Source: Polyangiaceae bacterium (GTDB lineage Bacteria > Myxococcota_A > Polyangia > Polyangiales > Polyangiaceae). Taken from it: a stretch of 48,347 nt of DNA. A program made the translations under genes and the position numbers. Below are positions 14,080 to 35,072 of the stretch, piece by piece. Below the pieces are notes generated by a model, which worked only from the letters and a program-made list of their open reading frames with translations, was not told the DNA's origin and made no database searches. Position 1 is the first letter of the stretch, and each line of letters opens with the position of its first letter. The DNA is taken from NCBI GenBank assembly GCA_025937835.1, contig JAICQO010000047.1, positions 1 to 48,347 of the forward strand, read 5' to 3'.

Positions 14080-14795
14080 GCACGACGTCACGACCCAGCG
14101 TCCACTCGACCGAAGCGCTGGTGCTCCGCCGCGTCGAGTACGGCGACGCCGATCTGATCGTGACGCTGCTCACGCTCTCGCTCGGGCGCGTTTCGGCGCT
14201 GGCGCGCGGGGCGCGCAAGAGCCGGCGTCGCTTCGGAGGCGCGCTCGAGCCGTTCTTCACGCTGCACGTGACGCTCGAAGAGCGACGCTCCTCGGAGCTG
14301 TTCGCGCTGCGCGAGGCCAGCGTGCTGCGGGCGCGCACCGGCTTGCTCGGTAATCTGCCGGCGCTCACGAGCGCGGGCCGCGTGCTCGGCTGGGTGCGGC
14401 GCGCAGCGCCCGCGCACACGCCGGAGCCGGAAGCCTGGTCGATCGTCGAAGAGCTGCTGGATCGGCTCGCCGCCGGCGCGGAGCGCGACGCGGACGTGGA
14501 GGTCGCGCGCGCAGCGCTCAAGCTCCTGGCCGCGTTCGGCTGGGCGCTCGAGCTCGAGCGCTGCGTGCGCTGCGGAAAGCTTTGCCCCGCCGGGCGCCCT
14601 GCCAGCATCGACCCGGCGCGCGGCGGCCTGGTGTGCCGCGAGTGCGGAGGCGCGCGCGTGCGTGTGACGCCCGACATCCGGTCGCGCCTGATCGCTGCCG
14701 CACAGGGACGGATCGAAGAGCTCAGCGCGGACGATGCGCGGTTCGCTCTGGATCTGGTGGAGCGGGTGCTCGAGACGCACGCGCCGGGGAGCTAG
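14076..14795 (+). CDS. recO: DNA repair protein RecO
   Basis: A 239-residue RecO, which with RecF/RecR loads RecA on single-stranded DNA. It has the N-terminal OB fold (ALVLRRVEYGDADLIVTLLTLSLGRVSALARGARKS), a helical middle and a zinc motif (CVRCGKLCP ... CREC). The start is GTG 14076, overlapping the RodZ-like stop (GTGA). Its TAG stop shares the four bases CTAG (14792-14795) with the stop of the convergent phosphate cotransporter gene. Confidence 0.93.
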   Translation: MSTTSRPSVHSTEALVLRRVEYGDADLIVTLLTLSLGRVSALARGARKSRRRFGGALEPFFTLHVTLEERRSSELFALREASVLRARTGLLGNLPALTSAGRVLGWVRRAAPAHTPEPEAWSIVEELLDRLAAGAERDADVEVARAALKLLAAFGWALELERCVRCGKLCPAGRPASIDPARGGLVCRECGGARVRVTPDIRSRLIAAAQGRIEELSADDARFALDLVERVLETHAPGS

Positions 14796-16867
14796 ACAGC
14801 GGCAGCCGGGCTGCTCTTGGCGTAGCTCGCAGCGAGCGACTCGGACAGCCGGTAGACCTGATTTCCAGCCGCTTCGTAGGCGTCGACCAGACCCAACACG
14901 CCGAGGTGCAAGCGCACGATCGACGGCTCCGGCTCACCCGACAAGACCGCGGCGCGCGCGCGCGCTTCGAGGCCGTTCATGTGGATCTCGCGGGCGCGCG
15001 CCAGGTCGAGATCCGCGGGCGAGCGCTGCTCGATCGAGCGCATCAGCGCGTCGACGCCCTCGGCGAGCAAGGTGTGGAGCTTGCGCAGCGTGTCCTCGTC
15101 TTGATGCGGGAGCAGCCGCGCTTCGGCGTTGGCCGAAAGCGCCACGCGGCGATCGATCAGGCGCTCGGCCTGGCGGTGGACGGCATCGAGCGCGCGTTCG
15201 AGCTGCAAGCAGCCGAACGCCGTGCGGCCGAGCACGTGGCCCTCGCCTTCTTTCTCGAGTCGGAGCACGGGGCCCGCGAGCAGCGCCTCGAGCTCGTCGT
15301 GGGCATCCGCCAGGCGGTGCTCCGCCGTGCGCCCGGCCTCGCGCCGGCCTTCGAGCGCCAGATCCAGCAGCGGTTCGAGGCCGCTGCGGTGCGCGGCCAA
15401 GACCCGCAGCAATGACGAGCGCACGACGCCCGCCACGTCGCCGACGCGAGACAGCTCGCCGGGCCGCCCGTCCGGAAACCAGTGCTCGAGCTTGCGCGCC
15501 AAGAAGGGCACGGCCGGTAGCAGCAAGAGCGCCGCGCCGAGCTGCGAGAGCGCGAAGGCCGCGCCGAGGTGCAGCCCGAAGTTTGGCAGCAGCACGCGCT
15601 TGCCCCACTCGATTTCTTGAGGGACGCCCGGCACGATCCGATCTGCGAGCCAGGCCCAGAGCCCGACCGTCAGCGCGCTGACCACGGTGCTACCGGCGCC
15701 CAGGATCAGGTGCAGCTGTGCCAGCCGGCGGCACGAGCGCCCGGCCGGCGTGGTGATCAACGCCCCGAACGCGGCGCCGAGACCGGAGCCGGACAACACC
15801 GCCAGCGCGGTTTTCAAATCCCACTCCGCCGTGGTCTGGGCGAGCATGAGCACCAGGACCACCACGGGCGCCGGGCCCTGCAGAACGGCCACGAGCGCCG
15901 CACCGAGCAGGCTGCACACGGCCACGTGCACCACCGAGTCGGCGCGCAACGAAGCCACGAACGAGAGCAGACGCGGATCTTGGATGAATGGCTCGAAGCC
16001 CGGCCGCAGCGTCTGCAAACCGAACGCGATCAGCCCCGCCCCCAACACGAAGCGCCCGATCGCGGTCGAGCGCCGATCCGCCGAGAGCCCGAGCCAGAGC
16101 ACGCCGATCGCGATCACCAGCAGCCCTTCGCGCGGATCGATCAAGCCCGTGACCAGCGGCGCGCTCGCGGCGCCGATCTGCGCGCCAAGGAAGGCCGAAG
16201 CCGCCGGCACGACCGCGAGCAAGCTCGAGGACACGAGGCCAGCGAGTAAGCCCGCGGCGGCCGTCGTGGATTGCGCGAGCGCACCGACGACTGCACCCAG
16301 ACCGAGCGCTGCCGGTCCGCGCCGGCCGAGCCTCGCAATCAGGTTGGCGTTGCCGAGACCGGCCGCGCCGCGCGCGCCGCGCGCCAGGATGCCGATACCG
16401 AAGATCAACAGCGCGAAGCCGCCGACGAGGTTGCGAAATGGCTTTCGGTAGTTCGCCGTCTTGACCTGCAGAGGGTACGGCTTGCTGCGCTCGTCACCGG
16501 CGTAGACGCGGAGCTTCACGCGCCCGACCGGCAGATCCGACGGCAGCCGCACCACGAGCGCGCCGTTCCGGCGGGCCAACACGGGCAGCTCTTCTTTCCC
16601 GGCAAAGGCTCGGACCGGCACACGCTCGGGCGCTCCCTCGTAACTGATCGTCACGGCCGAGCCGGCGACCGCATCGGTCGGCGAAACCGCGACCACGTCG
16701 AGCCGCTGCTCGGGCGCTGAGTCCGCGCCCGAAAAGTGCCCGGCATCGAGCGTCGCGGCCGGCTCGCCGTCGGGCAAGAGAAAGTAGACGAGCACGATCA
16801 GGCAGCTCGCGACCCAGGCAGAAACCAAGCGGAACGACCGCCTCGGGCGGTGTTCAGCTTGCGCCAT
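14792..16867 (-). CDS. Na+/phosphate cotransporter with IPT-like and PhoU-like regions
   Basis: A 691-residue inner-membrane protein of the NptA/YjbB (Na/Pi cotransporter) family. After one N-terminal helix, residues about 55-135 look like an extracytoplasmic IPT/TIG-type beta domain (VVAVSPTDAVAGSAVTISYEG), which is unusual. The transport core (about 145-465) holds the first-repeat signature GALAQSTTAAAGLLAGL. The matching position in the second repeat reads LQGPAPVVVLVLMLAQTTA, a departure from the usual QSS-type motif, so substrate or ion coupling may differ. Residues 480-680 are a charged helical domain like PhoU. It overlaps the VTC polymerase gene by 14 nt and is the last gene of the six-gene unit, which fits a role in supplying phosphate. 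Confidence 0.9.
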   Translation of the reverse strand: MAQAEHRPRRSFRLVSAWVASCLIVLVYFLLPDGEPAATLDAGHFSGADSAPEQRLDVVAVSPTDAVAGSAVTISYEGAPERVPVRAFAGKEELPVLARRNGALVVRLPSDLPVGRVKLRVYAGDERSKPYPLQVKTANYRKPFRNLVGGFALLIFGIGILARGARGAAGLGNANLIARLGRRGPAALGLGAVVGALAQSTTAAAGLLAGLVSSSLLAVVPAASAFLGAQIGAASAPLVTGLIDPREGLLVIAIGVLWLGLSADRRSTAIGRFVLGAGLIAFGLQTLRPGFEPFIQDPRLLSFVASLRADSVVHVAVCSLLGAALVAVLQGPAPVVVLVLMLAQTTAEWDLKTALAVLSGSGLGAAFGALITTPAGRSCRRLAQLHLILGAGSTVVSALTVGLWAWLADRIVPGVPQEIEWGKRVLLPNFGLHLGAAFALSQLGAALLLLPAVPFLARKLEHWFPDGRPGELSRVGDVAGVVRSSLLRVLAAHRSGLEPLLDLALEGRREAGRTAEHRLADAHDELEALLAGPVLRLEKEGEGHVLGRTAFGCLQLERALDAVHRQAERLIDRRVALSANAEARLLPHQDEDTLRKLHTLLAEGVDALMRSIEQRSPADLDLARAREIHMNGLEARARAAVLSGEPEPSIVRLHLGVLGLVDAYEAAGNQVYRLSESLAASYAKSSPAAAV

Positions 16868-17714
16868 GTACGGCTCCCGAGGCCGCCACGAACTTGCTGA
16901 ACGATATCGGTGCCACGCACGCGCGATCGAGCGCCCGCGAGAGCCAGCTCGGGGTCGCGGAGTGCTGCTTGACCTCGATCACCGCCTCTTCGAGCTCGCC
17001 GCGCACGGGACCGAGCTCGTTTCTGACCAGCGGACGCGGGCGGGTCCACAGATCGGGCTCGGGCGCGTAAAACGCCAGGCCGAGATCGATCGTCACGCGC
17101 AGGCTACCGTCGTCCGCCTGAAACGGCAGGCGCCGGTAATTGACGAGGCAAGACGGCTCGAGCGGCTCGTCGAGCTCGCGGCAGTAGCCGACGATGGCTT
17201 CGAGGCCGCTCCAAGTCGAGTCGTCCAGCCCGAGCTCGGGCGCGGCGAAGGCGTCGGGCACCACCCTGCCGCTCGTGAACAACGACGGCACGCCGCGCTT
17301 CGGCACGCGCAGGCGCTGCTTGGCCGTGCGATCGTTGTGCTTACGCTTCAGCTCGAACCACAGCCAGGGCTGATAGCGCACGATGTGCTCGGGCTCCGTC
17401 GCGAGCTCGGTCAGCGACGGGTGCAGATCGTAATACTCCTTGGCGCGGAACTTGACGTTGGCTTCGACGTTGGAAATTGCCGCGCGGTAGTGCTTCCGCG
17501 ACGGGGTGTCGAAGTAGATCGTGGTCACGTAATGGTGCGGATCCGGCAGGCGGTTCGCACCTTCACCGAGGTAGCGGTGCGAGGAGAGCCGTCGCTCGAG
17601 GTCGGCGAGGAACACACCTAGCCTGTCGCCTCGGAGCAAGTACTTGAGCTCCTGGCGTTCGGCCGTGATGCGCTCGTCGGCCGAGCTCGGGGCGGACTCC
17701 TCGACCGACAACAT
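16854..17714 (-). CDS. VTC-type polyphosphate polymerase
   Basis: A 286-residue single-domain protein of the VTC (CYTH-like triphosphate tunnel) family, which makes inorganic polyphosphate from ATP in yeast vacuoles and has bacterial homologues of unknown role. Visible tunnel-lining motifs are QELKYLL (the E-x-K signature), TIYFDTP, VKFRAKEYYD, WFELKRKHN, VNYRR and AVIEVK. No membrane helix is present, so it should work on the inner face of the membrane. The start ATG overlaps the stop of the preceding lipoprotein gene (TGATG), and its end overlaps the Na/Pi cotransporter gene by 14 nt. Polyphosphate made here could pull imported phosphate into storage; this is inference from context. Confidence 0.92.
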   Translation of the reverse strand: MLSVEESAPSSADERITAERQELKYLLRGDRLGVFLADLERRLSSHRYLGEGANRLPDPHHYVTTIYFDTPSRKHYRAAISNVEANVKFRAKEYYDLHPSLTELATEPEHIVRYQPWLWFELKRKHNDRTAKQRLRVPKRGVPSLFTSGRVVPDAFAAPELGLDDSTWSGLEAIVGYCRELDEPLEPSCLVNYRRLPFQADDGSLRVTIDLGLAFYAPEPDLWTRPRPLVRNELGPVRGELEEAVIEVKQHSATPSWLSRALDRACVAPISFSKFVAASGAVHGAS

Positions 17715-18493
17715 CAGTTCACTTGATACTCCGTGAGCTCTTCGACCTGGCCGCCGGTCTCCTTCACCTTGCCGACGTTGGGCACGTACCAGTACTTCTT
17801 TTCGTTCATCGAGCCGCTGACCTTGCGCAGCACGACGGCCTCGAACGTGCCTGCCGGCACCGTGACCGACTCGATGCCGTCCACGAACCAGCGGTCGTTG
17901 GTGACGACGTCGTTGCTCGCCTGCCCGCCGACCCGGATCTTGTTCTCTTTGTACGACTCGAGCCAGGTCGCACCCACCGCGACGTGCGCCGCGGAGCTGT
18001 CGACGTGCAGCTTGTGCGGATCCCAGAACTCCTCGAGCTCGAGCTCTTTCGTGGAGCGGCTGAACGACTGTTCGCGGTAGCGGACCACGCGCTCGCCGTC
18101 GATCGCCTGCCAGCTCCGGGTCTCGTCGAGATCCACGCCGTCCCCGGTGTCGTTCTTGTGGGTGATGACGAGGTTCGCCATCTTGTCCTTGTTCGGGCCC
18201 GTTCCGCCGACGGGCTGAAGCTCACCGACCGTCGTGCGCTTGGTCGTCACGGTGCCGTCTTCGGTCACGCGGTACGTCCAGCTGTTGCCGACGGTCCACG
18301 GCAGGAGCGGACCGCGCGACATCGCGGCGCCGCTGCTGCCACCGCCGCCGGGTGCGCCGGCGACGCCCGAGCCGCCGCCGGTCGCGCCCGGAGTGCCTCC
18401 GGCATTGCCGTTGTCTTCTCCTGGATCCTCGCTGCCACAGGCCAGGGCCAGCGCGGCCAACAGCGAAACGGCGAAACCTCGAACCAAGTTCAT
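17714..18493 (-). CDS. Lipoprotein of the phosphate unit, DUF3108-like
   Basis: A 259-residue lipoprotein (lipobox ALAC, Cys19) with a Gly/Ala-rich linker (about 25-58) and a beta-rich domain. It starts LLPWTVGNSWTYRV and ends KKYWYVPNVGKVKETG, a pattern seen in DUF3108/TapB-like exported proteins of unknown function. AAGGAG lies 11 nt before the ATG. It follows the kinase-like gene by 22 nt and overlaps the VTC gene by one base. It may bind a ligand or a partner at the membrane, but nothing catalytic is visible. Confidence 0.8.
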   Translation of the reverse strand: MNLVRGFAVSLLAALALACGSEDPGEDNGNAGGTPGATGGGSGVAGAPGGGGSSGAAMSRGPLLPWTVGNSWTYRVTEDGTVTTKRTTVGELQPVGGTGPNKDKMANLVITHKNDTGDGVDLDETRSWQAIDGERVVRYREQSFSRSTKELELEEFWDPHKLHVDSSAAHVAVGATWLESYKENKIRVGGQASNDVVTNDRWFVDGIESVTVPAGTFEAVVLRKVSGSMNEKKYWYVPNVGKVKETGGQVEELTEYQVN

Positions 18494-18515
18494 GATCGGC
18501 GCATCTCCTTGACGT

Positions 18516-20219
18516 TCAGGCGTCGAGCTCCCCGCCGGGATTTTTGAGGCGGTGGATCCCGAGGTACATTGCAGCCACGTGTTTTAGCAGCGACACGTTG
18601 CCGGGGTATTTTTCGAGCTGGCGCTCGACGAGGGCCTTGCCACGGGGGCCGTCGGCGAGCGGACCGAGGGTTTTCGCCACGGTCGAGGGCCAGAGGTCCG
18701 CGCAGCGCTCGCGGAGCTGCCAGGCTTCGGCATCGTCGAGCGAATCCAGGCTGTCGATGGCCTCTTTGCAGTCCAGGGCCACGGCCTGCCGCATCACCCA
18801 GGCGCGCGGCTCGGTGGCGCGCCGGAGCGAGGCCATCACCACCTTGGGTGCGCGGTGCAGGCTCTCCTCGCGCCAGCTGAAGCTGCGCGGGCTGAGCACC
18901 CCGGCAAGTGACGCGAGCGCCGCGACCGGCGCCGCGACGCGCGCCGTTTCGCGCACGGCCCAGGCGCGCTCGTCGTCGAGCCCGGTCACCGACTTGCAGG
19001 CGGTTTTTGCCTCTTCGTAGTCGCGAGCAAGCCCGTTGCCCACGCGCTTCAGCCACTGGTCGCGCAAGAGCCAGGCGCGCTCGCCTGCGAGCGTGGCGAG
19101 CGAGCTCACCACCTGCTCGGAGTGACTCGCGTACTGGCGATCGCGGATGCCCCACGACGCCGCGTCGTCGAGCCCCTCGCACGAGGCGAGCACGTCGGCC
19201 GCTGCGCGGCTCTCGAGCGCGAGGCGCAGCTCACGAGCGCGGACGTGCTCGGCGGGCAGCCCCGCGAGCGTGCGGGCCACGGCAGCTGGAAATTTCTCGA
19301 GCAGCTGTTCGCGGAGCTCCCAGCTCAGCGGATCGTCGAGCCCGGACAGGCCCGCCAGGATCGCCTCCGGAACACGCTCGGCGAGCGCGCGCCGGCGCGC
19401 GTCGATCTCTGCGCCGAACAGACCACTCAGCAAGTACGCCGAGACGCGGGGCTCGCGCTCGCTGCGCTGATCGATCCAGCGCAAGAATGCGTCGAACGCC
19501 GCTCGCTGAGTGCGGAGCGGCGCGGGCGCGGGGCGCGCCGCTCGCTCGGCCCGGAATCCGCGGAGCGCCGTCGGAGAACCCGACTGGCGCGCCTCGCGGA
19601 CCAGGCTCGTCACGCGCTCGACCGTAGCCTCGAGCGCGTCCTCGTTGTCGACCACCGCCCAGCGCTCGGGCGAGCCCGCGGCGAGCTCGAGGTAACCCTG
19701 GCGCATGCGGTGCTGCAGACCCACGCCCGCGAGCCCCTTGCGCGACGGCGCGCGCTTGTCTCGAGCTGCGATCTTGGACGCCTTGCGCCGCGCCCGCGCC
19801 AGCACGGGGTCCACGTCGACCAGCACCACCAGATCCGGTGCCAGACCACGCGCTGCTTGCTCGAGGATCGGCTGCATCCACTCGCGAGACAGCTTGCGCC
19901 CCGCGCTGCCCAGGATCTGCGCCGTGAACAAGAAGCGGTCCGCGATCACCAGATCGTGGCTCGCGAGCGCCGGACGCAGCGCCTCTTCGATGAGCTGTAC
20001 CTCGCGGGCGACGTAGAGCAGAAACTCCGCCTCCGGCACGAGCTCGATGTTCTTCGCGTCGCGGCCCAGATCGCGGATCGCCTCGGTCACGGACGAGGCG
20101 AACTTGCCGTCCGCGCGCAGGTGCTTCACCCGCAGGCCACCCGCTGCGAGCTTCTCCGCCACCAGGTTGGAGACTGTGGTTTTTCCGCTGCCGTCGATAC
20201 CTTCGAACACCACGAACAT
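18516..20219 (-). CDS. Thymidylate-kinase-like protein with helical-repeat tail
   Basis: A 567-residue protein, over twice the usual length of dTMP kinase (about 210). Residues 1-210 are a TMK-fold kinase: P-loop FEGIDGSGKTT, the DRF motif (IADRFLFTAQILG) and an Arg-rich lid (ARRKASKIAARDKR). Residues about 260-550 are roughly ten helical repeats of 27-35 residues. Their consensus is D-D-x-x-x-W-x-L-R-E, then P-x-x-V-x-x-S-L-x-G-L; clear copies start at 294, 350, 414, 469 and 495. This looks like a HEAT-like solenoid and I know no such fusion. It overlaps the porin stop by one base (TGATG). The substrate may not be dTMP; a phosphate- or polyphosphate-linked nucleotide kinase is an alternative. 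Confidence 0.85.
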   Translation of the reverse strand: MFVVFEGIDGSGKTTVSNLVAEKLAAGGLRVKHLRADGKFASSVTEAIRDLGRDAKNIELVPEAEFLLYVAREVQLIEEALRPALASHDLVIADRFLFTAQILGSAGRKLSREWMQPILEQAARGLAPDLVVLVDVDPVLARARRKASKIAARDKRAPSRKGLAGVGLQHRMRQGYLELAAGSPERWAVVDNEDALEATVERVTSLVREARQSGSPTALRGFRAERAARPAPAPLRTQRAAFDAFLRWIDQRSEREPRVSAYLLSGLFGAEIDARRRALAERVPEAILAGLSGLDDPLSWELREQLLEKFPAAVARTLAGLPAEHVRARELRLALESRAAADVLASCEGLDDAASWGIRDRQYASHSEQVVSSLATLAGERAWLLRDQWLKRVGNGLARDYEEAKTACKSVTGLDDERAWAVRETARVAAPVAALASLAGVLSPRSFSWREESLHRAPKVVMASLRRATEPRAWVMRQAVALDCKEAIDSLDSLDDAEAWQLRERCADLWPSTVAKTLGPLADGPRGKALVERQLEKYPGNVSLLKHVAAMYLGIHRLKNPGGELDA

Positions 20220-21616
20220 CAGAACGACACCGCCGCTTGCAATAACAGCCCGAGGTGATCGGGCTTTCGACCACCGAAGTAACCCGTGGCGCCGGAGGGG
20301 AAGTTCCGCTGGGATTTCGCGATTTCACCTTGCAGGCCAAGGCGGGCGCGATCCCAATAGCCGACGTTCACTCCGAGCGCCGCTTCGTAGACGAAGTCGG
20401 AGGTTACCTCGGTATCGGGCTCCATCAAGCTGAACAGGCCGAACGGCTCGACGTAGGTCTGATCCGGCGCCATGCCGCCGAAGCGCAGGCCGGCGCACAG
20501 CCGCCCCGCCACGAACAGCGCGTCGTCTTCGTCCGGCGCTTTTTCGCGGTGCTCGTACCAGCTCTCGCCGACCATGCCCTCCGCCCAGACCCGCAGCCCC
20601 GCGTCGCCGAACGCGACGTCGAGCACGGCGTCCACGCCGGCGGTCAGGTAGTGGTCGAATTCACCGACCTCCGCCGAGCCGGCGCGGTGCTCGTAGTACG
20701 CCCCGAGGTCGAGCGCGTCGGCGAGCTCGATCCCGGCGCGCAGCACGTAGCTCTGCCCGTCGAGATAACTCTCGGGCGAGACCTCGCGCAGCGCGATCGG
20801 ATCGGTGTTGCGATCCCCCGGCACGATTTCCTCTTCCAGCACGCTGCCCTGGAAAGCGCCCAGACTGACGTACGGCTTGATGCCGCCGCGCCCGCGCATG
20901 CCCAATAACACACCGGGGTGACGGCCGCCGACGTCGAGCCAGTCGTCCAGGATGTCGTGCAACAGCCCGCGCCGCACGACCGGAAGGTCGAACAGCGACT
21001 CCATCGCGTAGGCCGAGACCGGCATCTTGAAGTTGCCGGCCTTGGCGCTGAAGTGCCGGTCCTTCGCCAGGAGGTAGGCGTCCTTCATGTCCGGGCCGTC
21101 AGCGACCTCGAGCTCGATCTCGCCCGACAACCACTCGAGCGGGGACTGGTACTTGAGGCTGAAGCGCGCGGTCGGAATCGTGAGATCGAGCGTGTGCGGG
21201 TGCTCGGTTTCGGGGAGCAGCGTCGCCTGGTCCACGACCTCCCGCTCGTGCCGCCGGAGCTCGCCGAGCACGAACACGCGCCCCTTGAAGGTGAACTCAC
21301 CGACCGCGCGGATCTGCTTCGGATCCTTCTTCTTCTTTTTCTTCTTCTTGCCCTCTTCGTCCTGATCGGCGGCGGCCTCGACCTCGGCGAGCGGAGATGC
21401 GCTCGGTACCGAGGCAACGCTCGGTAGAGGAGCGCTGGCAGGCGCCTCCGGCGCCGGAGCAGCCTCCGCTGCCGCGGCCGGAGCGGTAGTGGGCGCCGGC
21501 TCCGGCGCAGCGGCGGGCGGCGTGACCTCGGCCGCTGACTCCTGGGCGTACAGCGGCGAGCCGTACGCGAGAACCGACGATAGAACTAGCCCGGTACCGA
21601 CGCGGCGTCGCTTCAC
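20219..21616 (-). CDS. Phosphate-porin-like outer-membrane protein
   Basis: A 465-residue exported protein with a signal peptide (cleavage after YAQ-like residues, about 25). An Ala/Pro-rich spacer (30-85) leads to an acidic stretch running into eight lysines (about 88-97), and then a beta-barrel of about 360 residues ending in Phe. The barrel segment SGEIELEVADGPDMKDAYL... AKAGNFKMPVSAYAMES... RRGL resembles the OprO/OprP phosphate-selective porins. The barrel ends ...LLLQAAVSF, a proper outer-membrane signal. The start GTG 21616 overlaps the upstream stop (GTGA). The lysine run uses mixed AAG/AAA codons, so it is not a slipped homopolymer. Phosphate uptake is inference from resemblance and context. 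Confidence 0.85.
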   Translation of the reverse strand: MKRRRVGTGLVLSSVLAYGSPLYAQESAAEVTPPAAAPEPAPTTAPAAAAEAAPAPEAPASAPLPSVASVPSASPLAEVEAAADQDEEGKKKKKKKKDPKQIRAVGEFTFKGRVFVLGELRRHEREVVDQATLLPETEHPHTLDLTIPTARFSLKYQSPLEWLSGEIELEVADGPDMKDAYLLAKDRHFSAKAGNFKMPVSAYAMESLFDLPVVRRGLLHDILDDWLDVGGRHPGVLLGMRGRGGIKPYVSLGAFQGSVLEEEIVPGDRNTDPIALREVSPESYLDGQSYVLRAGIELADALDLGAYYEHRAGSAEVGEFDHYLTAGVDAVLDVAFGDAGLRVWAEGMVGESWYEHREKAPDEDDALFVAGRLCAGLRFGGMAPDQTYVEPFGLFSLMEPDTEVTSDFVYEAALGVNVGYWDRARLGLQGEIAKSQRNFPSGATGYFGGRKPDHLGLLLQAAVSF

Positions 21617-23712
21617 TTGCCGCGCCCCGGGTACGGTCGTGCCTGCTTCACGATCAGCTTGGCGTCGCCCGGCGTGCTGTCTTCGTCATCGTATTTGAAT
21701 TCGACGTCCATCGCGTACCAATCGTTGTTACCCGCGCCCGGTCCGTAGGCCTTCGAGAAGCGCTGGTGGATGGCATCGAGGGCCACTCCCAGATCGTAAA
21801 TCTGCCGGCGCGTCAGCACCGTCTGCCCCTCGGGGACCAGGTTGGAGTGCGAGGTATACGTCGTGGGCTGCCCCGGCTCATTGAAATAGTAAACGAAGTT
21901 GTCGGTGGTGATGCCGGGCGGCGGGTGCACGACCTCGCTCGCGCCGCCAAACTGCACGTTCACGTAGAACCCAGGCTGAAGCTGCAGCGGGTCGAACGGG
22001 TTCGCGGTGATCGCCACGCCGTTCGCCTCTTCCTCCGGGAAGTTGTGGTGGACGAGCAGCCCCATGCCCACGGACTTGTGGTCGATGCTGTGGTAGCGCC
22101 GCTCCTCGAACGTGCGGAACAGCCAGATGCTGGCCCAGGTCTCGCGCAGCGCGTCCAGCACGTCGGGCCAGTCGAGCTCACCCGTGGCCTTGTCGATCCT
22201 GCCGGTGTGGGATTCGTAGCAGCCGGCGCAGGGGAACCCGTCGAGGTCCTCGCTGTTGGTGCTGGTGCGGAAGCGCATGCTCGTCTTGGGAAAATCCGTG
22301 TCCAGCTTGGCCCGCAGCAGATCCTGAAGCTCCTGGCTGACCGCACCCAGCATCATGTCGTCGCGCAGCTTCTTCAGCCGCTGGTCGCGCACGGCCGGAT
22401 CGTTCACGAACGTCGGGTCGGCCAGCATCTGGTCGATCTGGTCGTAGAACCCGTTGTCCTCCATGAACTGGACGTAATAGTAGATCGGCACGCCGAAGGC
22501 CTTGCGCACCGGTACGCCCTCGGTCTTCGCGAGGATCGAGTAATGCGCCGTCTTCGCACCGTAGGCCAGGATCGCCGTCTTGATCCCCTGGAGCAGCTCC
22601 CCCGAGCTCTCGTCGACGATGTCCTCGACGTTTTTGAGTGAGCGCTCGTCCAGGTTCAGCGCCGGCAGCGCCACGCCTTTCGGACGGCGGGCTTCCCAGT
22701 CCGCGGCGGCCTCCGCGTCGGTCGCAGGCACCACCGAGTACTCGAACGCGCCGACCGTGAACTTGACCCACTGCCCCTCGAGCGCGCGGAGCGCTGGGTT
22801 TTGCGAAGCCCCACGCAGGCCCATGTTCGGCGTCTTGCGGTTCACCGCCAGCACGTTGACGTGCGAGAGCGGCGTCTGAAACTCGTCCGTGATCATGCCG
22901 CTGACGACCGTGATGTCGTTCGGGATCTCGTCGAGCACGACGATGTCTTGGAAATCGACGTACTTCGACGCGAGCTCGGCGGCGTTGAAGAAGCGCAGCC
23001 GGCCCACGACGGAGCCCAGGTTCAGCGGTTGGTAGTCGATGCCGCGGTAAAGCTCGGTGGTGGAGACCGTGGGCATCGCCGCGCCCGCCTTGGCGGCTTC
23101 GAGCGCAACGCTCTCCGAAGTCGGGTGAAACGCGAGAGCCGGGCCGAAGTACGTGTGGCTCTTCACCGCTTCGTACAGCTTCGTCATCATCGCCGACGAG
23201 GCCGTGTCGTACGGCGCCATCTCGAGCGTCCAGGTCCCCGGGCCCTCGTAGTAGGTGATCGCGCCGAGGATGAAGCGCCGCTCGGGGCTCGAGTATTGCC
23301 CGCTGTTGAAGGTCGCGAGATCCTCGACGAACGGCCGACCGTTGCCGGAGAGGTGCGTCGAAGCGAACTCGTAGTGGATCGCGTACTTCGTGCTGTTCTG
23401 AAAGTAGATCTTGTCGCCGTCCTGCTGGTCGAGCACCACCTTGCCCGAGCGGGCGCCCGGGATGCTCTGATCCAGCGGCAGCGAAGCCAGCGCGTCGAAG
23501 TCAGCGCGGCAGCCGATGCGCGTCGCAAAATCCGACTCCACGCCCGCCGGCAGCTCGCACGTGCCTTCCTGAACGACGGCCGGCGCCCCGCCGGTTCCGC
23601 CGGCACCGCCGCCCGGGCCCGCCGGGGCGGCCGGATTGCCGTCGCTCTCCGAACAACCGAACAACGCGAGCAGCACGCTCGCCAGTACGCCGATCCGCAG
23701 CCATTCCGACAT
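21613..23712 (-). CDS. Exported lipoprotein with phosphohistidine and PEP-synthase-like ATP-grasp domains
   Basis: A 699-residue lipoprotein (lipobox LFGC, Cys20) with a Gly-rich linker. After an N-terminal domain of about 230 residues with no known match comes a phosphohistidine swivel domain (TPLSHVNVLAVNRKTP, His284). An ATP-grasp domain of the PPDK/PEP-synthase type follows (YGAKTAHYSIL, RFRTSTNSEDLDGFPCAG, WASIWLFRTFEERRYHSIDH, AITANPFDP), closing with VKQARP. The PEP-binding barrel is absent, and the domain order matches glucan water dikinases, not PEP synthase. The start at 23712 was chosen for GAGGACATCG just upstream; 23724 and 23727 are alternatives. It is the first gene of the phosphate unit. 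An ATP-using enzyme outside the cytoplasm is odd; the acceptor is unknown. Confidence 0.85.
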   Translation of the reverse strand: MSEWLRIGVLASVLLALFGCSESDGNPAAPAGPGGGAGGTGGAPAVVQEGTCELPAGVESDFATRIGCRADFDALASLPLDQSIPGARSGKVVLDQQDGDKIYFQNSTKYAIHYEFASTHLSGNGRPFVEDLATFNSGQYSSPERRFILGAITYYEGPGTWTLEMAPYDTASSAMMTKLYEAVKSHTYFGPALAFHPTSESVALEAAKAGAAMPTVSTTELYRGIDYQPLNLGSVVGRLRFFNAAELASKYVDFQDIVVLDEIPNDITVVSGMITDEFQTPLSHVNVLAVNRKTPNMGLRGASQNPALRALEGQWVKFTVGAFEYSVVPATDAEAAADWEARRPKGVALPALNLDERSLKNVEDIVDESSGELLQGIKTAILAYGAKTAHYSILAKTEGVPVRKAFGVPIYYYVQFMEDNGFYDQIDQMLADPTFVNDPAVRDQRLKKLRDDMMLGAVSQELQDLLRAKLDTDFPKTSMRFRTSTNSEDLDGFPCAGCYESHTGRIDKATGELDWPDVLDALRETWASIWLFRTFEERRYHSIDHKSVGMGLLVHHNFPEEEANGVAITANPFDPLQLQPGFYVNVQFGGASEVVHPPPGITTDNFVYYFNEPGQPTTYTSHSNLVPEGQTVLTRRQIYDLGVALDAIHQRFSKAYGPGAGNNDWYAMDVEFKYDDEDSTPGDAKLIVKQARPYPGRGK

Positions 23713-23788
23713 CGATGTCCTCATCACGACCTGGGCAAGTAGTCACCCGACGCACATTCACGGAGTCACGGTTTTTCGCAATTTGGTT

Positions 23789-23828
23789 TCAGACCCTTAC
23801 GAACCACCACGATGGTGAGCGGGTCTGA
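23789..23828 (-). promoter_or_regulatory. Nested stem-loop in the leader of the phosphate operon
   Basis: TCAGACCC and GGGTCTGA form an exact 8-bp outer stem. Inside lies a second hairpin, CACCA-CGA-TGGTG. The structure is about 80 nt upstream of the first gene of the six-gene unit. On the plus strand it is followed by GATTTTCT, so it could also act as a terminator of plus-strand transcription. No known riboswitch class is recognised. Confidence 0.4.
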
Positions 23829-23927
23829 TTTTCTGGTTGAGAACCGGGGCTTCGGCGTCGGACCCGTCAACCATGGCTGGAATTTCGACGGACCACCAGC
23901 TGCCTGATCTGCCCCCCTACGAATACG

Positions 23928-23937
23928 TCATATATGA
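23928..23937. promoter_or_regulatory. A/T-rich palindrome TCATATATGA
   Basis: A perfect 10-bp palindrome in a locally A/T-rich patch between the divergent phosphate operon and phosphatase gene. It could be part of a promoter or a regulator site. GTCATA within it recalls half of a Pho box, but the required second repeat is missing. Confidence 0.25.
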
Positions 23938-24014
23938 AGATTTAGGCCCTCACTGGAGCAGGCCAACGCAGCGGGCACTGGGAGCGTGTTAGATCGCCGC
24001 CCACGAGTCCACGG

Positions 24015-25046
24015 ATGCCCGAAGCGTCACCGAACCCGCCTGAGCGGCGGCTCACCCTGAGACAGCGGCGCGTGCTCGGCGTCACGGTGCTCGTCCTCGG
24101 GGCCGGAGCCGCCGGGGCGATAGTCCTCTCTTGTTGCAAGCGCGAGGGCCGAGCTCCGCAGAGCAGCCAGGCGCTCGTCCAGACCGTCCCCGGCGCGGCC
24201 GCCTCTACGCCGGCCGGAGCTGCCGAAGCCGCAGCCGCCCCGTCGTGCGCTCCCCCCGCGCCGCTGCCGACCACCCGCTTCGCCGTGATCGGCGACTTCG
24301 GGTACGAAGGTCCGAACGAGCAGCGCGTCGCCGATTTCGTGAAGAGCCAGACGCCCGAGTTCGTGCTCACGACCGGCGACAACAACTACGTGTACGGCGA
24401 GCAGAAGACCATCGATGCCAACATCGGCCAGTACTACGCCGAGTACATCTGTCCGTACTCGGGTCGCTTCGGTCCGGGCGCGAGCGTGAACCGCTTCTTC
24501 CCTGCCCTCGGCAACCACGACTGGGCCACGCGCTCGCTGCCGTACCTCGACTATTTTCAATTGCCGGGCAACGAGCGCTACTACGACGTCGTCTGGGGCA
24601 ACGTGCACCTGTTCGTGATCGATAGCGACCGGCACGAACCGGACGGCATCACCGCGGACTCGAAGCAGGCCGCGTGGCTTCGAGAGCGGCTCGCCGCCTC
24701 CAAGTCCCGCTGGAAGGTCGTGGCCATGCATCACCCGCCCTACTCTTCGGGCTCTCACGGCTCGTCGCTCGCGCTTCGCTGGCCGTACGAGGCCTGGGGC
24801 GCGAGCCTGGTGCTGGCCGGCCACGACCACCACTACGAGCGCGTCGAGGTCGGCAAGGTTCCCTTCATCGTCAACGGGCTCGGCGGCCGTAGCCTGTACG
24901 CGATCGAAGCGCCGATCCCGGGCAGCGTGGTGCGCTTCGCGGCGGCCTACGGCGCGCAGATCATCGAAGCCACGCCCACCGAGCTAGTGTCCCGCTTCTT
25001 CACCACCGACGGCAAGCTGATCGACGAGCGGAAGTTGTCCGACTAG
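24015..25046 (+). CDS. Exported acid-phosphatase-like metallophosphoesterase
   Basis: A 343-residue protein with an N-terminal membrane/signal helix (residues about 18-38, ending near two cysteines, SCC, a possible lipidation site) and an Ala/Pro-rich linker. A calcineurin-like phosphatase domain of the ACP5/purple-acid-phosphatase kind follows. Metal ligands are seen in VIGDFG, TTGDNNYVYG, ALGNHDW, AMHHPPYSSG and AGHDHHYER. It should hydrolyse phosphate esters in the periplasm or outside. It is divergent from the phosphate operon, a sensible partner for a porin and cotransporter. murJ follows after 13 nt and may be co-transcribed. Confidence 0.93.
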   Translation: MPEASPNPPERRLTLRQRRVLGVTVLVLGAGAAGAIVLSCCKREGRAPQSSQALVQTVPGAAASTPAGAAEAAAAPSCAPPAPLPTTRFAVIGDFGYEGPNEQRVADFVKSQTPEFVLTTGDNNYVYGEQKTIDANIGQYYAEYICPYSGRFGPGASVNRFFPALGNHDWATRSLPYLDYFQLPGNERYYDVVWGNVHLFVIDSDRHEPDGITADSKQAAWLRERLAASKSRWKVVAMHHPPYSSGSHGSSLALRWPYEAWGASLVLAGHDHHYERVEVGKVPFIVNGLGGRSLYAIEAPIPGSVVRFAAAYGAQIIEATPTELVSRFFTTDGKLIDERKLSD

Positions 25047-25059
25047 GCTCCGGCCAGCC

Positions 25060-26670
25060 TTGGAAGCCGAGGAACCAGCGAAAGACCGCGGCGCGCGGGA
25101 GCACGAGCGCATCGCCGGTCGCGCCGCGATCGTGGCCGCTGGCACGCTCGCGAGCCGCTTTTTGGGGCTGGTCCGCGATCAGGTGTTGGCGGCGGTGTTT
25201 TCGCGCCAGCTGACCGATGCGTTCTTCGTCGCTTTCACGATCCCGAACCTGCTCCGGCAAGTGCTGGGAGAAGGCGCCGTGCAGAGCGCCGTGCTCCCCG
25301 TGCTCACGCGCACCAAAGAGCAGCAGGGGGACGACGCCGCGCGGCGTTTCTTCGCCAACCTGCGAGGCCTGTCCTGGACGCTGCTCGTGACGGTGACCGC
25401 GCTCGGCGTCGGCTTCGCCGAACCGCTGGTGTGGCTGTTCGCTGGTGGCTTTCAGGAGATCCCGGGACAGTTCGAGCGCACCGTCTGGCTCACGCGCTGG
25501 GTGTTCCCGTACATCCTGTTCATGGGCACGGCTGCGCTCGGCGTGGCCGCGCTCAACACCTACCGCCGTTTCACGGTCACCGCCTTCGCCCCGGCGCTCT
25601 TGAACGTGGCGTTCATCGGCTGCGCGCTCGGAATGCCCTGGCTTTTCGGCGCGCGCTACGACCCGGCGACCGCGCTCGCGACCGCGGTACTGCTGGGCGG
25701 TGCGCTGCAGGTGCTCGCGCAGTGGCCGAGCTTGCGCCGGATCGGCTTCGCCGCGCGGCCGCGCTTCGACTTCGGTCATCCGGAGGTGCGCGAGGTGCTG
25801 CGGCGCATGGGCCCAGTGATGCTCGGGATGGGCGTGTACTACGTCGACGTGCTGCTCGCGCGGCGCTTCCTCTCCGAGCAGGGCGTCGGCGCACAGAGCT
25901 ACTTCAGCTGGGCGCTCCGGCTCTGCGACTTCCCGCAAGGGATCTTCGTGATGGCGCTGCAGACCGCGGCGCTGCCCAGCCTGTCCCGGCTCGCGAGCAC
26001 CGGAGATCGCGCCGAGCTGTCGCGCACCTTCACCTTCGGCATGCGCTTGACGCTGTTCGCCGCGCTGCCCGCGACGTTGCTGGCGCTGGCGCTCGCGGAG
26101 CCGATCGTGGTGCTGTTGTTCCAGCGCGGTCAGTTCGACGCCATCGCAGCGCACGAGACCGCCCGCGCGCTGGTCGCGCAGGGCGCGGGGATCTGGCTCG
26201 TCGCGCTGTGCCGGCAGCTGGTGTCGCTCTACTACGCCGTCGGCGACACGCGCACGCCGGTGCTGGTGGCGGCGCTCGACCTCGGCGCGTTCGTGATCGC
26301 TGCGCTGGCGCTCGCGGGCCCGCTCGGCCACGTCGGCGTCAGCGCGGCGGTGAGCATCGCGAGCGGAGTGCAGGCCTTGCTCTTGTGGTCTTTCGCCGGT
26401 CGCCACCTGCCAGACCGGCGCAGCGCGGAGATCTTCGGCTCGTTCGCGCGCACCCTGGCTGCCTCGCTCGCCGGCGCGGCCGCGGCCTACGGCGTTCGCG
26501 AGGGCTTGTCTCGAGCCGGGCTCGGGCTGTCGTCCCAGGCGATTTTGGCTGCGCTCGCGGGCGTCGCCGCGTTCGTCGGCGCGGCGTTCGTGTTCCGGAG
26601 CCCCGAGCTCCGGATCGTCACGGCCCCGCTCCTCCGTCGCTTCGGCCGAGGCCGTGGTAGGGAGGGCTAG
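25060..26670 (+). CDS. murJ: Lipid II flippase MurJ
   Basis: A 536-residue polytopic membrane protein of the MurJ/MviN family that flips lipid II across the inner membrane for peptidoglycan synthesis. Family segments include SRFLGLVRDQVLAAVFS, DAFFVAFTIPNLLRQVLGEGA and SAVLPVLTRTKE near the N-terminus, and about fourteen hydrophobic helices. The start is TTG 25060, 13 nt after the phosphatase stop. engB follows after 33 nt. Confidence 0.96.
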   Translation: MEAEEPAKDRGAREHERIAGRAAIVAAGTLASRFLGLVRDQVLAAVFSRQLTDAFFVAFTIPNLLRQVLGEGAVQSAVLPVLTRTKEQQGDDAARRFFANLRGLSWTLLVTVTALGVGFAEPLVWLFAGGFQEIPGQFERTVWLTRWVFPYILFMGTAALGVAALNTYRRFTVTAFAPALLNVAFIGCALGMPWLFGARYDPATALATAVLLGGALQVLAQWPSLRRIGFAARPRFDFGHPEVREVLRRMGPVMLGMGVYYVDVLLARRFLSEQGVGAQSYFSWALRLCDFPQGIFVMALQTAALPSLSRLASTGDRAELSRTFTFGMRLTLFAALPATLLALALAEPIVVLLFQRGQFDAIAAHETARALVAQGAGIWLVALCRQLVSLYYAVGDTRTPVLVAALDLGAFVIAALALAGPLGHVGVSAAVSIASGVQALLLWSFAGRHLPDRRSAEIFGSFARTLAASLAGAAAAYGVREGLSRAGLGLSSQAILAALAGVAAFVGAAFVFRSPELRIVTAPLLRRFGRGRGREG

Positions 26671-31834: not shown

Positions 31835-33244
31835 CTACGTCCGCGGCCGGCGCTCGAGCTCGATCCCGAGCCGCTGCATCCTGCGATACAGCGCCTGTCG
31901 GCTGAGCCCGAGCTCGGTCGCCGCGAGCGACACCACTCCGCGCGCCCGCACCAGCGCCGATTCGACCAGATCGCGCTCGTCGGAGGCCGGCGGCGGCACG
32001 CTGGCGCGGCGTGCGCGGTCGTCGGGGGTGCGGTCCTGCGCGGGCGCCGCGGCTGCGCTCGCGTCGAGGCCCAGATCCGTCGGGCGGATCGTGGAGCTCG
32101 GTGCGACCAGCACCGCGCGCTGCACGCGGTTTTCGAGCTCGCGCACGTTGCCGGGCCATTCGTGCTGCTCGAGCGCGTCGAGCGCCTCTCCTCCGAAGGC
32201 GAGCTCGCGGTCGCCCTTGTGGATCTCGAGGAAGCGCTCGGCGAGCGGGACGATGTCGTCGATTCGCCGCGACAGCGCCGGGACCGACAGCTCGATCACG
32301 TTCAGACGGAAGTACAGATCTTCGCGGAAACGGCCGGCGGTGATCTCCGCCTTGAGATCGGCGTTGGTGGCGCTGATCACGCGCACGTCGACCTTCTTCG
32401 TGGTGGAGCTACCGAGGCGCTCGAACTCGCCGGTCTGAAGCACGCGCAACAGCCGCATCTGGCCGGCCGCGGACAGGTTGCCGATCTCGTCGAGGAACAG
32501 CGTGCCCTGGTGGGCGGCTTCGAAGCGGCCGATGCGCAGCTTGGTAGCGCCGGTGAAGGCGCCGGCCTCGGCCCCGAACAGCTCCGCCTCGAGCAGCTGA
32601 TCGGGCAGCGCGCCCGCGTTCACCCGCACGAACGGCTTGTCCTTGCGCCGCGAGTTCGCCTGCACGATTTCGGCGACCTTCTCCTTGCCGGAGCCGTTCG
32701 GGCCCGTGATCAGCACCGGCACGTCGGAGCGGGCCACGTTGACCGCCAGCGTGATGGCCTGGTGCATCCCCGCGCTCTTGTAGACGACGCCGCACAGGTC
32801 GTAGCTGTTCGAGAGCTCGCTGCGGGCGCGCGCCTCGCGCGTGCTGCGCGACAGGTTCTCGCGGCGCGCGCGGAACAGCGCGAGCAGGTTCTGCACCGTG
32901 ACCACCAGCTTCTGATCGTCCCAGGGCTTGGCGATGTAGTCCGCGGCGCCTTGCTTGACGAGCTTCACCGCGGTCTCGAGCGAGGTCCAGGCCGTGATCA
33001 GGATCACGGGCAGATCCGGATCGAGGGCGCGCGTGTCGGCGAACAGCTGCGCGCCCTCTTCACCCGAGGTCGTGTCCTTGGTGAAGTTCATGTCCTGGAT
33101 CACCACGCCCACGTCCTCCGTGCGGATCAGATCGAGCGCTTGCTCGGGCGATTGCGCGGTCAGACACTGCATGCCGTTCAGCTCGAGCAGCAGGCTGAGC
33201 GCGGTGCGCACCGCTTCCTGGTCGTCGACGATGAGGACTTTCAT
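31835..33244 (-). CDS. Sigma-54-dependent response regulator (NtrC family)
   Basis: A 469-residue regulator: receiver (residues 1-120, VLIVDDQE, acceptor Asp51 in [15 protein letters not shown]), AAA+ domain (about 160-385) with Walker A GPNGSGKE (the usual motif reads GESGTGKE), the sigma-54 contact loop GAFTGA, Walker B LFLDEI and arginine-finger region [10 protein letters not shown], and a Fis-type helix-turn-helix at the C-terminus ([15 protein letters not shown]). It lies 15 nt downstream of the TolC-type gene on the same strand. Its expected kinase partner is the NtrY-like gene at 39391-40671, and its targets are probably the sites at 34987-35018. Confidence 0.95.
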
Positions 33245-33259
33245 GGTTCGCGGCGGGGA

Positions 33260-34798
33260 TTATCGCCTGACTTGGCCGAGCGCGCGAGCGAGCTGTGCGC
33301 GGGCGACTCCCCGGTCGATGCGGGCCCCGACGGCGTCGTAGCGCGCCTGGGTGAGGTCGGTCTCCGCGTCGAGCACCTCGACCGTGGTGGCGCGGCCGTT
33401 CGCGAACAGCAGTTTTCTCACGCGATACGACTCCTCCGCCGCGCGCAACCCGCGTTCCGTGGTCGACAGGGCGATCTCGGCTTCGTCGGCGGCCTGCGCG
33501 GCCTGGAGCACCTGGGTCCGGACGCCGTCCGCGAGCGCCGAGCGGTCGGCCGCGAGGGCCGCCGCCCGGGCGTCGATGCTGCGCGCGCGCGCCGAGGTGC
33601 CGGGGATATCCGAAAGCGTGATCGACAGCTTCGCTCCGGCTTGCCAGGTCGCCCGCCACTCCTCCTCGGAAGGAAAGATGCGCGAGTTCGGGTTGGCGTA
33701 GGTGGCGCCGGCGAACAAGTCGAGCCGGGGCGCGTACCCGCCGCGTTCGGCGCTGGCCTCGGAGCGACGCGCCTGCTCGGCCTTCTCGAGCGCGCGGAAC
33801 TCGGGCCGCTGCAACTCCGCGACCCGCACGAGCTCGTTCAACCACGGCACCTGGCGCTCGGCGCTCGGCGCGGCGTTGAAGCTCTCGCCGATCGCGTAGC
33901 TCTGGTTCGGCGGATCGTGCATCAACGTCCGCAGCTGATCTTCGGCGAGCTGGCTCAGGTGACGTGACTTCACCGCCACCAGCTCGGCGTGCGCGGTCTG
34001 GGACTCGACGCGCAACAGGTCCGCGCGCGAGGCGGTGCCGGCGTCGACCAGCGCCTTCAGATCGTTCAGGTGGGCTTGCGTCTGCGCGAGCGCCTGGTCG
34101 GCCACGATCGCACCGAGCTTGGCGCGCACCCAGTCGTAGTAGGCGTAGCGAGCTTCGGCGTCGGCATCCAGCTTCTCGACCTCGAGGCTCTTCGCCGTCG
34201 ACTCGCGCACGAGCTTGGCAGCGCGGTGCGCCGGCGCGACCTTCAGAAAGTAGTCCGAAACCGGCACGACCAGGTTCGCCGAGACCGAGTACTGGTTCAA
34301 GATCTGCGGGAATTCGAGGGGGACGTTGACGAGCGGCGAGCCGGGCGGGATGGGCCCCGGCCCGGCCGTGGGCGCCGCGACCAGGTTGCCGAGCTCGCTG
34401 TCTCCGACGTCCGAGAGCCGCGTGTACTGCGCCTCGACGGACAACCGCGGAAAGTAGGCGGCGAGCGCGCGATCGACGTCGGCGGCGGCAGCGCGCAGCT
34501 CCTCCCGTTGCTTCTTCAAGGCCGGGCTCGTCTGCGTCGCGCGCGTGGCGGCCGCATCCGAGGTGAGCCCGCCCGGGCGGCCGAGCTCCGCGCTGATCAA
34601 GCGATCGAAGCTCGCGTCGCCGGACGCCGTGGGTGCCGGGGGTGCGACGGGCGCCGCTGCCGGAACGGCGGGTGCCGGCGCCGGGTTCTGCGCAGCCGCG
34701 GGCAGCGCGAACGCGATCGAGGCGACGACGCCGAGCGCCGACAGAAACCCGCGACCGCGCAAACCGAAGACGCGCGCCGAATACTCTGAGTGCAACAT
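33260..34798 (-). CDS. TolC-family outer-membrane efflux protein
   Basis: A 512-residue outer-membrane channel of the TolC/OprM type: signal peptide (cleaved near residue 35, PAAAQ), Ala/Pro-rich spacer, then two long helical-hairpin repeats (about 90-500), with the typical strand-turn positions and coiled-coil segments (for example TLMHDPPNQSYAIGESF and LVRVAELQRPEFRALEKAEQ). It would be the outer part of the pump formed with the adaptor at 35101 and the RND permease at 36200, transcribed divergently. GGAG lies 11 nt before the ATG. Confidence 0.93.
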   Translation of the reverse strand: MLHSEYSARVFGLRGRGFLSALGVVASIAFALPAAAQNPAPAPAVPAAAPVAPPAPTASGDASFDRLISAELGRPGGLTSDAAATRATQTSPALKKQREELRAAAADVDRALAAYFPRLSVEAQYTRLSDVGDSELGNLVAAPTAGPGPIPPGSPLVNVPLEFPQILNQYSVSANLVVPVSDYFLKVAPAHRAAKLVRESTAKSLEVEKLDADAEARYAYYDWVRAKLGAIVADQALAQTQAHLNDLKALVDAGTASRADLLRVESQTAHAELVAVKSRHLSQLAEDQLRTLMHDPPNQSYAIGESFNAAPSAERQVPWLNELVRVAELQRPEFRALEKAEQARRSEASAERGGYAPRLDLFAGATYANPNSRIFPSEEEWRATWQAGAKLSITLSDIPGTSARARSIDARAAALAADRSALADGVRTQVLQAAQAADEAEIALSTTERGLRAAEESYRVRKLLFANGRATTVEVLDAETDLTQARYDAVGARIDRGVARAQLARALGQVRR

Positions 34799-34835
34799 GA
34801 CTTTGCTCCGCTGCTAAATGATGCGTCGCCGCTGT

Positions 34836-34850
34836 TCACGACTCGTGCCA
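34836..34850 (-). promoter_or_regulatory. Sigma-54-like promoter of the tolC-type gene
   Basis: On the minus strand TGGCACG (a perfect -24 element) is followed after four bases by GTGA where TTGC is expected, so the -12 element is imperfect in its conserved C. Transcription would start about 26 nt before the ATG, which has a GGAG ribosome site. Read by eye only. Confidence 0.4.
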
Positions 34851-34986
34851 AGCGCACGACACCGCGTCGCGGCGGGGTCGACTGAACCACCGTTCGACAG
34901 ACGAGTGCGGCAGTTCCTCGCAGCGCGGGCCGTAAAGCGCAGAGAGCGCGCCACCCGCTTCGGCCCCGCGACCGCGTCCGCGCGTA

Positions 34987-35018: not shown

Positions 35019-35072
35019 AGGCTCGTAACAGCGTTTTTCGCGTCTACCCCTGAAATTGGCGGGGATTTTTCG

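Follow-up and report, generated by a model that had tools for sequence, protein, structure and literature searches.

A conserved gene module around a predicted VTC-type polyphosphate polymerase in a Polyangiaceae bacterium, and its possible coupling to the cell envelope

Contig JAICQO010000047.1 of a Polyangiaceae bacterium (GenBank assembly GCA_025937835.1) was analysed over positions 1 to 48,347 of its forward strand, a stretch of 48,347 nucleotides (nt) that we call the window. It carries six minus-strand genes grouped around a VTC domain protein, a predicted polyphosphate polymerase, with an exported phosphatase encoded divergently. The source genome is 6.9 Mb in size, in 227 contigs, and 95.8% complete. 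A preliminary description of the window, made from the DNA alone, had listed the six minus-strand genes, joined by overlaps and one short gap, together with the exported phosphatase, and their coordinates and junctions were all confirmed. The features of the locus are as follows (aa, amino acids; TMK, thymidylate kinase):

14792-16867, minus strand: NaPi-like membrane protein, 691 aa; PF02690 (Na_Pi_cotrans), 57.9 bits (cut-off 29.1)
16854-17714, minus strand: VTC domain protein, 286 aa, predicted polyphosphate polymerase; PF09359, 84.7 bits (cut-off 23)
17714-18493, minus strand: DUF3108-like lipoprotein, 259 aa; lipobox LALAC identified by eye; PF21347, 25.6 bits, sub-threshold (cut-off 27)
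18516-20219, minus strand: TMK-solenoid kinase, 567 aa; Thymidylate_kin, 91.7 bits (cut-off 27); TIGR00041, 107.5 bits (cut-off 83.25)
20219-21616, minus strand: outer-membrane porin, 465 aa, assigned to the OprP/OprO family through homologues; no Pfam match of its own
21613-23727, minus strand: exported phosphohistidine/PPDK_N ATP-grasp lipoprotein (PPDK lipoprotein), about 700 aa; PF01326, 64.9 bits (cut-off 27)
23713-24014, no strand: intergenic region separating the operon from the divergent phosphatase gene, read from the sequence
24015-25046, plus strand: exported purple-acid-phosphatase-like metallophosphatase, 343 aa; PF00149 (Metallophos), 61.9 bits (cut-off 21.5)
25060-26670, 3' of the divergent phosphatase: MurJ, from a protein family scan

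The NaPi-like and VTC genes overlap by 14 nt (16854-16867), single-nucleotide TGATG overlaps join VTC to the DUF3108-like lipoprotein (17714) and the TMK-solenoid kinase to the porin (20219), and a 4-nt GTGA overlap (21613-21616) joins the porin to the PPDK lipoprotein; the single gap, of 22 nt (18494-18515), lies between the DUF3108-like lipoprotein and the TMK-solenoid kinase. Counted from the ATG at 23712, the likely start of the PPDK lipoprotein, the phosphatase begins 302 nt away; from an upstream GTG at 23727 the distance is 287 nt. Scans of the locus found no Pho-box (0 vs. 0.96 expected) and no sigma-70-like promoter, the intergenic region included, while a terminator scan gave 8 hits (5.6 expected), both minus-strand ones inside genes.

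The six genes form a conserved VTC-centred module. All six recur in the window's order and on one strand (PPDK lipoprotein, porin, TMK-solenoid kinase, DUF3108-like lipoprotein, VTC, NaPi-like protein) in a Polyangiaceae metagenome-assembled genome (MAG; locus L110), and five of the six, from porin to NaPi-like protein, are found in that order at four further loci (L032, L103, L107 and L111), which bears out in relatives the grouping first proposed from the window. L032 comes from a survey that took in 144 genomes of the window's class, among them the source genome itself; a collection of bacterial and archaeal genomes yielded 22 loci encoding a relative of the VTC protein. A homologue of the divergent phosphatase lies next to the module in L103 (58% identity) and in L104 (59%), the latter carrying the PPDK lipoprotein, DUF3108-like lipoprotein and VTC genes. 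In four Planctomycetes MAGs, two of which add DUF4956, VTC adjoins a TMK-solenoid gene, so the pairing of these two proteins spans two phyla. Chance clustering is ruled out by the recurrence of gene order and linkage in other genomes. The divergence of five module proteins over eight loci was also correlated (r 0.83-0.95), with species phylogeny uncontrolled, and is not proof.

VTC (PF09359) was detected in 63 of the 144 class genomes. We fetched 38 VTC neighbourhoods, comprising only loci where a simple codon-usage gene caller found VTC; short contigs lower the counts, which are descriptive because some of these loci also contributed to the locus profiles. The TMK-solenoid kinase was present in 20, the DUF3108-like lipoprotein in 17, DUF4956 in 16, the porin in 15 and the NaPi-like protein in 13, with CotH (9), HlyD (7), outer-membrane efflux proteins (7), the PPDK lipoprotein (3) and the phosphatase (3) being rarer. 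One genome (G003) has three VTC genes, one in a TMK/NaPi module (L032) and two beside CotH kinases (L033 and L034).

Synthesis of polyphosphate from ATP by the VTC protein is likely on sequence grounds, because the positions at which substitutions inactivate yeast Vtc4, plus the catalytic lysine, are conserved. A profile of 26 VTC members matches Vtc4 (3g3q, E 1.1e-26); a search of the Protein Data Bank with the single VTC protein gave no useful result. Sixteen positions are invariant in the 26 aligned members, including R90, E121, K132, R195, R206, E247 and K274. The passages of PMC9911596 on the inactive yeast enzyme describe an R264A/R266A/E426N triple change, and the altered letters are visible in structures 7ytj and 5iig; the three residues align to R90, K92 (Lys for Arg) and E247 of the window protein, position 92 being Lys in 13 members and Arg in 13. 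Vtc4 Lys-458, termed catalytic in the relevant passage of PMC4641920, aligns to K274. The catalytic residues, to which the preliminary description had drawn attention, are thus kept both in the window protein and across the alignment. With its active-site residues intact, a dead remnant is ruled out. The VTC protein would provide an extra route to polyphosphate, because the genome has its own PPK1.

The TMK-solenoid kinase is a hallmark partner of VTC. Its solenoid tails occur in 21 of the 144 genomes and VTC is present in all 21, compared to 63/144 overall (Fisher p 3e-9), a relationship that holds by genus (16/16, p 9e-8); in 14 of the 21 genomes the two lie within 10 kb of each other. What had been described as a TMK-like kinase with a repeat tail did prove to have both parts, and can be refined to a thymidylate-kinase fold (residues 1-214) fused to a C-terminal alpha-solenoid of ~320 aa with about 10 short repeats (about 238-552). 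In the AlphaFold2 model (predicted local distance difference test, 91.5), the kinase domain matches TMK 4edh with a Z of 23.8 and a root-mean-square deviation of 2.2 over 204 aligned residues; the structure matches listed were thymidylate kinases alone, and PPK2 was not among them. The protein scores above the cut-off of the dTMP kinase equivalog model TIGR00041, while being neither a stand-alone kinase nor in possession of the canonical lid. Its lid motif, R-[KR]-[GS]-L-x-G, is found in 25/25 aligned TMK-solenoid kinase domains and is absent from the genome's housekeeping tmk, encoded separately on contig C95. The existence of this second gene marks the module copy as an extra one and rules out the TMK-solenoid protein as the genome's only thymidylate kinase. 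In the passages of PMC8776046 devoted to its architecture, PPK2 resembles thymidylate kinase and holds polyphosphate between core and lid by Lys/Arg residues. Since PPK2 combines this resemblance with a grip on polyphosphate by basic core and lid residues, polyphosphate may, by analogy, be a fair candidate ligand of the TMK-solenoid kinase.

DUF4956 belongs to the VTC system, because VTC is present in all 55 of the 144 genomes that encode it (p 1e-31; 33/33 by genus), a count that includes sub-threshold matches, with 45/55 genomes over the Pfam cut-off. The two lie within 10 kb of each other in 41 of the 55 genomes, and in 14 control genomes both turn up in the same three. The window genome has a DUF4956 protein, sub-threshold in Pfam, on contig C127 (L072:6647-7345); a profile made from members found within the class matches it with an E of 2.1e-51. 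Its model has putative membrane-spanning helices and a C-terminal ACT/S6-like ferredoxin domain (residues 151-232); Foldseek and VIA aligned essentially this ferredoxin-like domain and gave no match at E<=0.001. MgtC has a plan similar to this helical bundle with a ferredoxin domain. The preliminary description had contrasted the window operon with known neighbourhoods of bacterial VTC proteins containing CotH or DUF4956. Such a set is indeed in the literature, CotH, poly-phosphate polymerase and DUF4956 being described beside Pel polysaccharide clusters in passages that do not use the word VTC (PMC7112168). The contrast holds for the operon itself, which contains neither protein (the eight proteins encoded at 14792-26670 include no CotH), but not for the genome, where DUF4956 tracks VTC here as elsewhere; in relatives, moreover, DUF4956 adjoins the TMK-solenoid kinase.

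The NaPi-like protein has an N-terminal anchor and an extracytoplasmic TIG-like region (by eye), followed by the Na_Pi_cotrans domain and a C-terminal helical region. Its family, PF02690, includes the SLC34 cotransporters and the bacterial NptA and YjbB, in which QSSS motifs bind Na and Pi. The window protein has QSTT in repeat 1 and QGPAP in repeat 2. The second QSSS is replaced in 14/14 module members (QGP in 13, QGA in one), and Q[ST][ST][ST] of repeat 1 is kept in 8/14, the window's included, and lost in 6/14; both QSSS motifs are present in an ordinary PF02690 protein from the class (L088, genome G133). SLC34A2a, in which the motifs are visible, matches the protein over repeat 1 only, and two NCBIfam Na/Pi models remain sub-threshold (47 vs. 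210.1 and 33.5 vs. 50). Of the earlier label 'Na/Pi cotransporter', the fold therefore stands through the PF02690 match, and the signature does not; because the second QSSS is lost throughout, we do not class the protein as a Na/Pi symporter. Phosphate import by it is doubtful from its motifs, although it could still move phosphate.

The module form is a distinct group, 11 of the 144 genomes scoring >=381 bits and the next 197, and the TMK-solenoid kinase is present in 11/11 of these genomes. At the VTC locus, NaPi and DUF4956 alternate, with DUF4956 found in 1/13 NaPi loci vs. 15/25 others (p 0.002). Permanent replacement of DUF4956 by the NaPi-like protein is ruled out, as 10/11 module-NaPi genomes keep DUF4956, nine of them on another contig.

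Signal sequences of the envelope proteins were read by eye. The exported phosphohistidine/ATP-grasp lipoprotein of the preliminary description was upheld by its PPDK_N match, its invariant His and its recurrence near the VTC set. A phosphohistidine-type motif, TPL[SA]H, lies ahead of the ATP-grasp domain, and neither this His nor key residues of the ATP-grasp vary among the aligned members (8/8). Phosphoenolpyruvate (PEP) synthase models match only the ATP-grasp part, the PEP-utilizers domain is sub-threshold (12.6 bits, cut-off 23.1), and no PEP/pyruvate-binding barrel was found with Pfam at E<=1, the protein ending after the ATP-grasp QARP motif. The linkage count drew on the best 76 PPDK matches (scores of 258 bits or more), the complete sets of 23 TMK and 58 DUF4956 matches, and 71 VTC matches, one VTC fragment being left out. 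The PPDK lipoprotein was within 10 kb of VTC, DUF4956 or the TMK-solenoid kinase in 16 of the 42 genomes with these PPDK matches, compared to about 0.5 expected under a rough model of uniform placement in 6.5 Mb. Beside it in L076 is a small lipoprotein with a lamin-tail domain (Pfam), with similar ones seen by eye in L077, L082 and L086; a lamin-tail domain is also fused to a paralogue in the window's genome, and lamin-tail proteins occur in two Planctomycetes loci.

The label 'OprP-like porin' is tentative and comes by way of homologues. The window protein itself has no Pfam match at E<=1, and four of seven homologues tested (L044, L059, L080 and L110) exceed the PF07396 cut-off, which is the basis of the OprP/OprO assignment. 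The description of the divergent gene as an exported acid phosphatase agrees with its PF00149 match and its likeness to purple acid phosphatase 1qhw (E 2.2e-10).

A second type of VTC locus (L050-L055, L057 and L063) looks like an export system, with VTC, DUF4956, an HlyD-like adaptor and an outer-membrane efflux protein, the parts varying between loci. Pfam confirmed efflux proteins in L050, L052, L055 and L063, and HlyD in L052 and L086; in L086 the adaptor is fused to a phytase-like esterase domain. For the HlyD label of L063 it gave only a sub-threshold phytase-like match. CotH was confirmed in L033, L034, L039, L052, L056, L059 and L061.

Our preferred reading, to which we give a probability of about 0.45, is that the operon encodes a bacterial polyphosphate polymerase of the VTC type along with its dedicated partners, and that this polymerase is coupled to the cell envelope. 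The VTC protein, with its conserved residues, would make polyphosphate from ATP in the cytosol, as a second route beside PPK1. The TMK-solenoid kinase, given its constant association with VTC, may assist it there, both by providing a docking platform and by acting as a kinase that handles nucleotides or polyphosphate. The NaPi-like protein and the DUF4956 encoded on the other contig would couple synthesis to the inner membrane and may transfer phosphate or its polymer between the cytosol and the periplasm, much as the membrane portion of yeast's VTC complex does. In the envelope, polyphosphate or phosphate would be handled by the two lipoproteins, the OprP-type porin and the purple acid phosphatase. 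We prefer envelope coupling to storage alone because VTC is tied to a membrane protein, DUF4956, because relatives' loci have HlyD/efflux parts or exported phosphotransferases, and because the NaPi-like protein has lost half its signature.

Several observations weigh against this reading. The TMK-solenoid gene is not within 10 kb of VTC in 7/21 genomes, in some through contig ends; in four of these (G009, G045, G131 and G137) it adjoins the PPDK lipoprotein, in two (G062 and G140) DUF4956, porin and lipoprotein, and in G134 DUF4956 alone at a contig end. At L042:11192-12817, a TMK-solenoid gene persists next to VTC although its product has lost the P-loop (GIEGSRKHA). Kinase activity is therefore not required in every member, and the loss suggests a separate function for the solenoid. 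The window operon has no DUF4956 adjacent to it and no HlyD or efflux partner, those parts belonging to the other type of VTC locus, and the DUF4956 on C127 is below the Pfam cut-off (25.2 vs. 30.6 bits). The module is patchy and dispensable, because VTC was found in only one of 14 other sampled genomes of the window's family. OprP-type porins and purple acid phosphatases usually serve uptake and scavenging, which favours inward flow, and the direction of phosphate flow, like every activity in the scheme, is one that we infer.

The preliminary description had phosphate moving from esters outside the cell to polyphosphate inside. Phosphate freed by the phosphatase would enter through the porin, be imported by the NaPi-like protein and be stored through VTC as cytosolic polyphosphate. 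Part of this proposal is well founded, namely the conserved gene set and the VTC residues. The porin family, the purple acid phosphatase and the Na/Pi fold all suit uptake, the phosphatase is kept in its divergent position in L103 and L104, and repeat 1 of the window NaPi-like protein retains QSTT. Loss of the second QSSS throughout the module group, in contrast to L088, counts against import, as do the lack of a Pho-box at the locus and the export parts of other VTC loci, and DUF4956 is left unexplained. Storage as the only purpose is further weakened by the HlyD and TolC-like parts and the exported CotH/PPDK phosphotransferases at relatives' VTC loci. We consider inward capture unlikely overall, but it keeps a substantial share of the weight because the porin and phosphatase point that way.

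A less probable alternative is that the VTC set serves exported phosphotransferases, CotH elsewhere and the PPDK lipoprotein here, which would phosphorylate surface proteins or polymers, the aim being something other than phosphate nutrition. CotH or the PPDK lipoprotein lies within 10 kb of VTC in 12/38 neighbourhoods (CotH checked with Pfam in seven loci), the PPDK linkage far exceeds expectation, and in the passages of PMC7112168 CotH, polyphosphate polymerase and DUF4956 lie next to Pel polysaccharide clusters. Neither protein is present in the other 26/38 neighbourhoods, some on short contigs, the five-gene loci L032, L103, L107 and L111 have no adjacent PPDK lipoprotein, and 26 of the 42 genomes with the best 76 PPDK matches show no link.

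We also regard as improbable, more so than surface modification as such, a scheme in which VTC and DUF4956 (or the NaPi-like protein) secrete polyphosphate as the donor for exported CotH or PPDK proteins, the TMK-solenoid kinase acting as a cytosolic gate. ATP is scarce outside the cytosol, where the PPDK lipoprotein is exported; if the scheme were true, extracytosolic polyphosphate would be an energy-rich donor for phosphorylating surface proteins or polymers, and the gate would match polyphosphate output to nucleotide state. Just as improbable is a PPK2-like, polyphosphate-dependent nucleotide kinase spending the product of VTC, for which the TMK-like core and the Lys/Arg grip of PPK2 (passages of PMC8776046) and the lid motif shared by all 25 kinase domains speak; against it, both fold and sequence comparisons point to true TMKs, with PPK2 not among the matches listed.

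Elsewhere in the window, positions 31835-39394 hold a separate efflux locus (an NtrC-type regulator, an outer-membrane efflux protein and an AcrB-family RND pump), 42022-44556 a probably secreted M6-type peptidase that contains three stretches of proprotein convertase P-domain, and 211-2295 a sulfatase carrying a PKD domain.

Bacterial VTC is common in the class, yet the literature that we found says little about it. Our search, which covered few subscription journals, yielded no publication that links VTC to a thymidylate-kinase-like protein and polyphosphate, or DUF4956 to VTC. The survey yields two partners never seen without VTC in the sample, DUF4956 and the TMK-solenoid kinase, and three conditional ones, the NaPi-like protein, the PPDK lipoprotein and the porin. 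Two questions thereby become amenable to experiment: the means by which bacteria tie the synthesis of polyphosphate to membranes, and the identity of the phosphate donor of exported kinases.

Each main component of the module has a known counterpart. With PF02690 cotransporters the NaPi-like protein shares its Pfam match and the repeat 1 match to SLC34A2a, but it has QGP or QGA in place of the second QSSS in every member and an extra extracytoplasmic N-terminal region. The TMK-solenoid kinase has the fold, P-loop and DR motif of thymidylate kinase, to which it adds the alpha-solenoid and its own lid motif, in a genome with a separate housekeeping tmk. PEP synthase and glucan water dikinase have the PPDK_N ATP-grasp and phosphohistidine-type His in common with the PPDK lipoprotein, which differs in being an exported lipoprotein with its His region before the ATP-grasp, an order that we take to be dikinase-like. 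Catalytic tunnel residues are common to the VTC protein and the eukaryotic VTC complex, described in passages of PMC9911596 and PMC10657179 as Vtc4 with Vtc1 and Vtc3, whereas the 286-aa bacterial protein is without a fused membrane or SPX domain and its possible membrane partners are separate proteins. The closest known system is the CotH/poly-phosphate polymerase/DUF4956 set, as it appears in the passages of PMC7112168, with which the module shares a VTC-type polymerase, an exported phosphotransferase as neighbour and, at the level of the genome, DUF4956 as a constant partner. That set is known; what appears new, within the literature searched, is the group of partner proteins around VTC in the window operon, which in place of CotH and an adjacent DUF4956 has the TMK-solenoid kinase, the NaPi-like protein, the porin and the DUF3108-like and PPDK lipoproteins.

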